From an uncultured Lachnospiraceae bacterium (GTDB taxonomy: Bacteria; Bacillota; Clostridia; Lachnospirales; Lachnospiraceae), in assembly GCA_905234595.1 (NCBI GenBank), contig CAJOID010000010.1:1-35011 (forward strand): a DNA stretch of 35,011 nt, given 5' to 3'. A program made the position numbers and the translations under genes. The notes under the pieces are model-generated. The model was not told the origin of the DNA, made no database searches, and was given only the letters and a program-made list of their open reading frames with translations. This document shows positions 10,567-26,211 of the stretch, one piece after another (positions within the stretch are counted from its first letter, which is position 1; every line of letters starts with the position of its first letter).

Positions 10567-10706
10567 AGGGCTTAGCGAATGTATATTCACAAGCAGGTAC
10601 TTGAGAGCCGCCGGCGCTCTGTGAGGTATCTCACAAACAGAAGCGTCCGTTGCGAGCGATCAGTAGCGCAAGCGTGCCTGCGGTGAATGTGCATTCGTTA
10701 AGCCCT
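10567..10706 (-). repeat. Structured inverted-repeat element, copy A
   Basis: A 140-base element fills the gap before mgtE. The ends are 24-base inverted arms (10567-10590 and 10683-10706) with three differences. A second paired segment, GCAGGTAC/GTGCCTGC (10593-10600 and 10674-10681), extends the stem. Inside are three hairpins: AGAGC/GCTCT (10604-10620), GTGAG-GTAT-CTCAC (10621-10634) and TTGCG/CGCAA (10650-10671). All four arm differences are G-U wobbles on the + strand transcript. The core at 10605-10634, read in reverse complement, matches 26146-26175 of the second element at 23 of 30 bases. No coding capacity is seen. It ends 31 bases before mgtE, leaving the mgtE ribosome binding site outside. 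The minus label marks orientation relative to copy B. Confidence 0.75.
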
Positions 10707-26003: not shown

Positions 26004-26211
26004 GTCTCGACACAGACAGTATATCTCGCAGAGGCGCTCCCGCTCATACTCCGACGTAGCGGCTGCTAGGCTCGTGCAATACCTCGCCAAGTATACTTCG
26101 CTTCGCGAAGTAGCCGTTTCACTAACGTGAAACTCTGCTAGGCTCGTGCAATACCTCGCCAAGCACCGGCGTCTCCGGATGCTCTGCGAGATATACTGTC
26201 TGTGCCGAGAC
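26004..26211 (+). repeat. Structured inverted-repeat element, copy B
   Basis: A 208-base non-coding element is bounded by 30-base inverted arms (26004-26033 and 26182-26211) with one difference, A26010 against C26205, which is a G-U wobble on the minus-strand RNA. Both arms are abutted by TTAC (26000-26003 and 26212-26215), resembling a 4-base target duplication. Inside is a 29-base perfect direct repeat (26063-26091 and 26135-26163) spaced 72 bases apart. Between the copies are the hairpins ACTTCGC-TTC-GCGAAGT (26095-26111) and GTTTCAC-TAAC-GTGAAAC (26116-26133). Without one 72-base unit the length would be 136, close to the 140 of copy A, which is related but inverted. Confidence 0.8.
26063..26163 (+). 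repeat. 29-base direct repeats inside element B
   Basis: Two identical copies (26063-26091 and 26135-26163) begin CTGCTAGGCTCGTGC and end CCTCGCCAAG. The 43 bases between them consist mainly of two hairpins. They mark a 72-base tandem duplication. The second copy runs into the stretch (26146-26175) that is also found in element A. Confidence 0.9.

Follow-up and report, generated by a model that had tools for sequence, protein, structure and literature searches.

MITEs of the NEMIS/Correia, ERIC and RUP types are short, non-autonomous intergenic hairpins that enter mRNAs, and some are targets of RNase III; they have conserved terminal inverted repeats, often with a TA-type duplication. The elements described here are likewise short, non-autonomous intergenic hairpins, but their termini are unconserved in sequence and no duplication was seen. 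The bcr1 repeats of the Bacillus cereus group are 147–167 bp long and occur in 12–31 copies (PMC2267715). Our family shares with bcr1 its dispersal, a length of ∼150 bp, a mobile-element-like character and a conserved fold, but belongs to a different host group; the comparison with bcr1 is one by description. To our knowledge, neither locus-specific paired arms nor in-place inversion is a feature of bcr1.

REP elements measure 20–40 bp (PMC3733652). Like REPs and REPINs with their RAYT, the elements studied here are intergenic palindromes with a conserved imperfect hairpin and many copies, but REPs go with a Y1 transposase, and here the own genome and five of six congeners have none; neither that Y1 (RAYT) association nor a 20–40 bp palindromic unit is found in our family. 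Hairpins maintained by template switching are known from microRNA and rRNA genes, in which inversions of the loop were very rare (PMC8794818). Our elements resemble these in having perfect stems kept by multi-base compensatory change and in-place loop inversions, but they are inverted at about half of orthologous sites.

The family thus resembles small structured mobile repeats (bcr1, NEMIS, ERIC) and is new in sequence and host range (set apart from bcr1 by description); its new features are ends that are paired but unconserved, and frequent inversion of the whole element. It is a multi-genus structured mobile-repeat family of the Lachnospiraceae, common bacteria of gut and rumen, that is absent from Rfam 15, and it raises the question of how an element with unconserved end sequences is moved. 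It also offers a natural experiment on the upkeep of long perfect stems: related species share dozens of orthologous hairpins, in which compensatory pairs, wobble intermediates and in-place inversions make RNA selection separable from DNA template switching. We think it somewhat probable that the two copies that we started from belong to a non-autonomous mobile element, bcr1- or MITE-like, whose conserved product is a long RNA hairpin and whose arms are kept paired by selection together with template switching.

Two copies in the window

The window, the whole stretch of 35,011 nucleotides that was analysed, contains copies A and B, which an earlier note had located and described as having long inverted arms. 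An inverted-repeat scan and folding z-scores bear this out: the window has no inverted repeat other than A and B with at least 20 consecutive pairs within 260 bases, three shuffled windows have no inverted repeat of at least 20 consecutive pairs, and the z-scores in core orientation are −8.9 for A and −8.6 for B. The note was also right that neither copy carries a gene (no plausible gene overlaps A or B) and that the reverse complement of 10605–10634 agrees with 26146–26175 at exactly 23 of 30 bases. The features are as follows.

10567..10706, + strand: copy A, whole hairpin element of the single-module subfamily (covariance-model match 10568–10706, 131 bits)
10567..10590, + strand: copy A left arm, locus-specific sequence, 24 bp with 3 G-U pairs, absent from the empty sites in congeners G002 and G004
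10593..10600, + strand: copy A conserved inner stem, 5′ side, GCAGGUAC (columns 26–33 of alignment A1)
10608..10655, + strand: copy A internal hairpin, with loop region GTGAGGTATCTCACAAAC at 10621–10638
10666..10673, + strand: copy A GNRA mini-hairpin, GC-GCAA-GC
10674..10681, + strand: copy A conserved inner stem, 3′ side, GUGCCUGC (family alignment)
10683..10706, + strand: copy A right arm (inverted-repeat scan)
26004..26211, core on − strand: copy B, whole element of the two-module subfamily, antisense to the flanking genes
26182..26211, − strand: copy B left arm in element orientation, 30 bp
26138..26162, − strand: copy B first hairpin module, TTGGCGAGGTATTGCACGAGCCTAG
26066..26090, − strand: copy B second hairpin module, the same 25 bases as the first (TTGGCGAGGTATTGCACGAGCCTAG)
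26036..26043, − strand: copy B GNRA mini-hairpin, GC-GGGA-GC
26004..26033, − strand: copy B right arm in element orientation

Copy A sits between a UPF0029-family gene and mgtE, and copy B between a cytidylyltransferase (PF01148) gene and dxr. They represent two subfamilies, B having two hairpin modules and different end stems. The 24-bp arms of A form 21 Watson-Crick and 3 G-U pairs, and the 30-bp arms of B contain one G-U pair, read on the − strand; the one arm difference previously counted in B stands, while of the four counted in A three are found in the 24-bp stretch.

Across the family the unit measures ∼135–210 bp. Its outer arms, ∼22–30 bp long and differing in sequence by locus, often have a GC-rich end and an A/T-rich middle. 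In the window's genus the inner stem is conserved as GCAGGURCUU ... GUGCCUGC and includes a U-G pair that never varies (the wobble at 10598/10676 in copy A); a GC-GNRA-GC mini-hairpin lies on the element's 3′ side. The internal hairpin, for which the family consensus of the copy A loop region is GCGAGGUNYNNCACGAGC, has CGAG on both sides of the loop, possibly forming tandem G-A pairs; some copies, including B, have two copies of this CGAG hairpin module. Copies in other genera follow the same plan with a different inner-stem sequence, and those of C. symbiosum have further shared bases beyond their 23-bp arms. At two loci (L060 and L119) a second, longer palindrome encloses the C. symbiosum-type copy, and its outer part is common to both loci. 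In another copy (L196, on G001 contig 8) the left arm contains GGAGGGGGAATCATGG, resembling a ribosome-binding site and start codon within the palindrome.

Family size and host range

The earlier note had guessed at a family of structured elements, whether mobile, RNA-forming or both, and had suggested a covariance-model search for further copies; the guess is supported by dispersed copies in the own genome and its congeners, by compensatory changes and by empty sites. Whole-genome BLAST gave 15 matches for A and 13 for B. Model R1, a covariance model built from 25 copies, gave 18 matches in the own genome, which correspond to ∼16 loci because two loci yield two matches each, and 3–11 in each of six other genomes of the genus; most matches have E < 1e-15, and the lowest E is 1e-42.

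Public genomes contain at least 117 stretches with the 25-base hairpin motif TTRGCGAGGTNYNNCACGAGCYTAG. All named carriers are Lachnospiraceae (Enterocloster, C. symbiosum, Hungatella, Butyrivibrio, Pseudobutyrivibrio, Eisenbergiella, Dorea and others) of gut and rumen. The distribution is patchy, with an exact match in 7 of 150 genomes spread over the Lachnospiraceae and none for the reversed control pattern. An origin in viruses or plasmids was rejected: a single viral contig carries the motif, and phages and plasmids gave no match to a C. symbiosum-type copy.

Rfam 15 gave no match at the gathering score, and none up to E 5 for A and B, in line with the note's remark that it knew of no named family matching by eye. 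Searches of the open literature by hairpin-motif sequence and keywords found no description of the family, though papers outside the open literature may have one; the family is apparently undescribed so far.

Conservation of the fold and its strand

Compensating base changes, sought in the aligned stems as the earlier note had advised, are present in most of them. In the genus set both-sided compensatory change occurs at 31 of 46 predicted pairs, and 91% of cells are paired, against 29–46% after the 3′ side has been shifted one to three bases. With 66 distinct rows, 39 of the 46 pairs covary and 94.6% of cells are paired (25–42% when slid) in an alignment fitted to the model, and an independent set of 18 copies from other genera has covariation at 41 of 51 pairs. 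In 12 orthologous element pairs, 18 arm pairs changed on both sides and 19 on one side with pairing kept, 18 lost or gained pairing and 220 were unchanged. The fold is conserved through compensatory change, and the arms are constrained to pair, to no particular sequence.

A G-U pair on one strand is an A-C pair on the other, so the ratio of the two tests which strand folds without recourse to an energy model; the arm alignments gave G-U and A-C equal scores. On the core strand of 57 elements we counted 79 G-U and 6 A-C arm wobbles (nominal p ∼2e-17, related copies not being independent), or 48 and 6 without one widely shared U-G position. The earlier observation that all arm wobbles of A and B are G-U in core orientation (+ for A, − for B) therefore generalizes. 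Among 92 four-base loops scanned, 78 are GNRA and 2 are GNYA. The G-U excess and the GNRA loops together mean that selection on the fold acts on a single strand. That strand is the + strand of the core, which has to fold and does so most simply as RNA, less probably as single-stranded DNA. The family has both marks of a structured RNA, compensatory stem change and strand-specific wobble.

The same data bear on two DNA-level accounts. In the first, the element is a passive palindrome, in which template switching is enough both to keep the arms complementary and to flip the centre, with no need of an RNA function. Template switching is documented to homogenize arms and invert spacers (PMC8604942, PMC8794818), the C. 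symbiosum-type arms are often perfectly Watson-Crick over 23 bp, and the Eisenbergiella pair discussed below shows a concerted three-pair change; but this account does not predict the strand-specific wobble (79 against 6), the GNRA loops (78 against 2) or the invariant U-G pairs, nor compensatory changes in internal stems and a hairpin nearly invariant across genera, and we consider it unlikely. In the second, which we judge rather improbable, the + strand folds as single-stranded DNA, and an HUH (Y1) transposase mobilizes it, as in REP or IS200-IS605-like elements. G-T is a tolerated mismatch in DNA also, the + strand was the more stable DNA hairpin in the three elements tested, and target-site duplication was not seen, all as this account would have it; however, the preference for a purine at the third loop position suits an RNA GNRA loop better, the element measures 140–210 bp rather than 20–40, and Y1_Tnp is absent from the own genome (89% complete) and from five of six congeners, though every one of these genomes carries the element.

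Divided by the direction of the flanking genes, the wobbles number 35 G-U against 3 A-C in sense copies and 32 against 2 in antisense copies. The G-U bias as a by-product of sense transcription of the operon, in its simple form, was rejected because the bias is equal in the two. Either flipping outpaces substitution, or else the folded strand is produced separately or functions as single-stranded DNA. Selection of the core-strand fold whatever the gene orientation also suits a stand-alone, trans-acting structured RNA (sRNA- or ribozyme-like) with each copy a gene, as do the GNRA loop and the possible tandem G-A motif, both suggestive of contacts with protein or of tertiary interactions. Set against this are arms that belong to the fold yet vary in sequence, the lack of any Rfam or ribozyme match, and the few bases that separate copies from the genes on both sides, which leave little room for a conserved upstream promoter; we hold this reading to be rather improbable.

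Insertion and genomic placement

The flanks of A, B and nine other copies of the own genome were searched in congeners, and filled and empty sites were aligned for eight. Copies A and B are absent from G002 and G004, where the gaps are of a few to about twenty bases and contain no palindrome; empty sites without a palindrome were found in congeners for other copies also. Since the empty sites hold no palindrome, arms and core were inserted together: the element enters short intergenic gaps as a unit. Insertion into existing palindromes or terminators, which would explain the locus-specific arms, was rejected on the same evidence. The dispersed copies are thus present or absent at orthologous sites as those of MITEs are, but their terminal inverted repeats are locus-specific rather than conserved in sequence. 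No target-site duplication is evident in the filled/empty alignments, whose flanks are too diverged to show one sharply.

Copies occupy tight intergenic gaps, in most cases with genes of like direction on either side (46 of 65; 28 antisense, 18 sense), and usually lie within ∼50 bases of both ORFs, with gene calls that are longest ORFs only, a few being hand-corrected for the wobble count. In several species the hairpin module is near or within a ribosomal protein (spc-type) operon (L063, L069, L086, L145). On G003 contig 28 (L264) a recent local duplication carried the element along: two copies stand 724 bp apart, and their flanks are identical over 566 bp.

Under the mobile RNA-hairpin reading that we favour, the element would be selfish in origin and its hairpin would act as RNA inside operon transcripts. 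Its position between operon genes makes mRNA processing or stability the likeliest effect, so that the likeliest roles may be intercistronic mRNA processing or stability, or else recognition by a trans factor that spreads a selfish RNA. Action in operon transcripts only is at odds with a G-U excess that is independent of gene orientation. The diverged flanks with no clear target-site duplication also count against our reading, as does the failure to find a mobilizing enzyme among those searched for (Y1, reverse transcriptase, recurrent neighbour gene). Mobilization by Y1/RAYT was rejected, there being no such gene in the own genome, and so was mobilization by reverse transcriptase, as RVT_1 is absent from the own genome, G004 and G006. 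No gene travelling with the element and no recurrent mobile gene was found among 865 clustered ORFs near copies.

Inversion in place and change of the arms

Flank comparison clearly identified 15 groups of orthologous sites, 8 of which include at least one species that has the element turned round with respect to the neighbouring genes, as read directly for two; the comparison is between species, with one genome per species. Inversion in place thus affects about half of orthologous sites. At one site G004 and G002 have identical 87-base cores in opposite orientation, within flanks 89–91% identical. Outer-arm mismatches move with the core where they are informative (L237/L244, and weakly L003/L224), so most of each arm belongs to the unit that inverts. 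Other genera offer few near-identical ortholog pairs, all in the same orientation.

Inversion at 8 of 15 sites, with both orientations common (18 sense, 28 antisense), is what a phase switch would leave, a regulated inversion toggling core and complement in the operon RNA. We give this hardly any credence: the inversions are seen between species only, not inside any one population, neither a recombinase nor a common recombination site was seen, the known neighbours are mostly housekeeping genes, and the near-identical pairs of other genera share orientation. Very unlikely too, if less so, is a mobile RNA element with termini set by pairing rather than sequence that spreads via recognition of its folded RNA core and, by flipping whole within operons at a sufficient rate, serves as a reversible RNA switch for neighbouring genes.

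Two Eisenbergiella MAGs (L081/L110) with flanks 94–96% identical differ at three arm positions changed on both sides together, one of them a C-G to G-C swap, and the outermost arm is replaced on both sides. Template switching between the arms of inverted repeats homogenizes the arms and flips spacers (PMC8604942), and has been proposed as keeping RNA stems (PMC8794818); the paired changes fit it. In our preferred account of a mobile element with an RNA hairpin, both the inversions and these concerted changes could arise when DNA polymerase switches template between the long arms. As a cause of inversion this is weakened by its normally flipping the spacer, whereas here the readable outer-arm differences flip too. 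Template switching alone cannot yield the G-U and GNRA bias, from which we infer that selection and template switching are both at work.

Related hairpin repeats

The hairpin also occurs in regularly spaced tandem arrays (L125, 6246–6375; L116, 5998–6187, with a spacing of 55 bp). A second class of Lachnospiraceae repeat has the same CACTTRGCGAGG..CGAGCYTAGTG hairpin (L080, L082, L089, L092, L096, L100, L125, L138). In this class the hairpin directly follows an extended −10 box (TGGTATAATGTGAACACTT), often in tandem arrays, and the repeat looks like a putative promoter with a hairpin at the start of the transcript.
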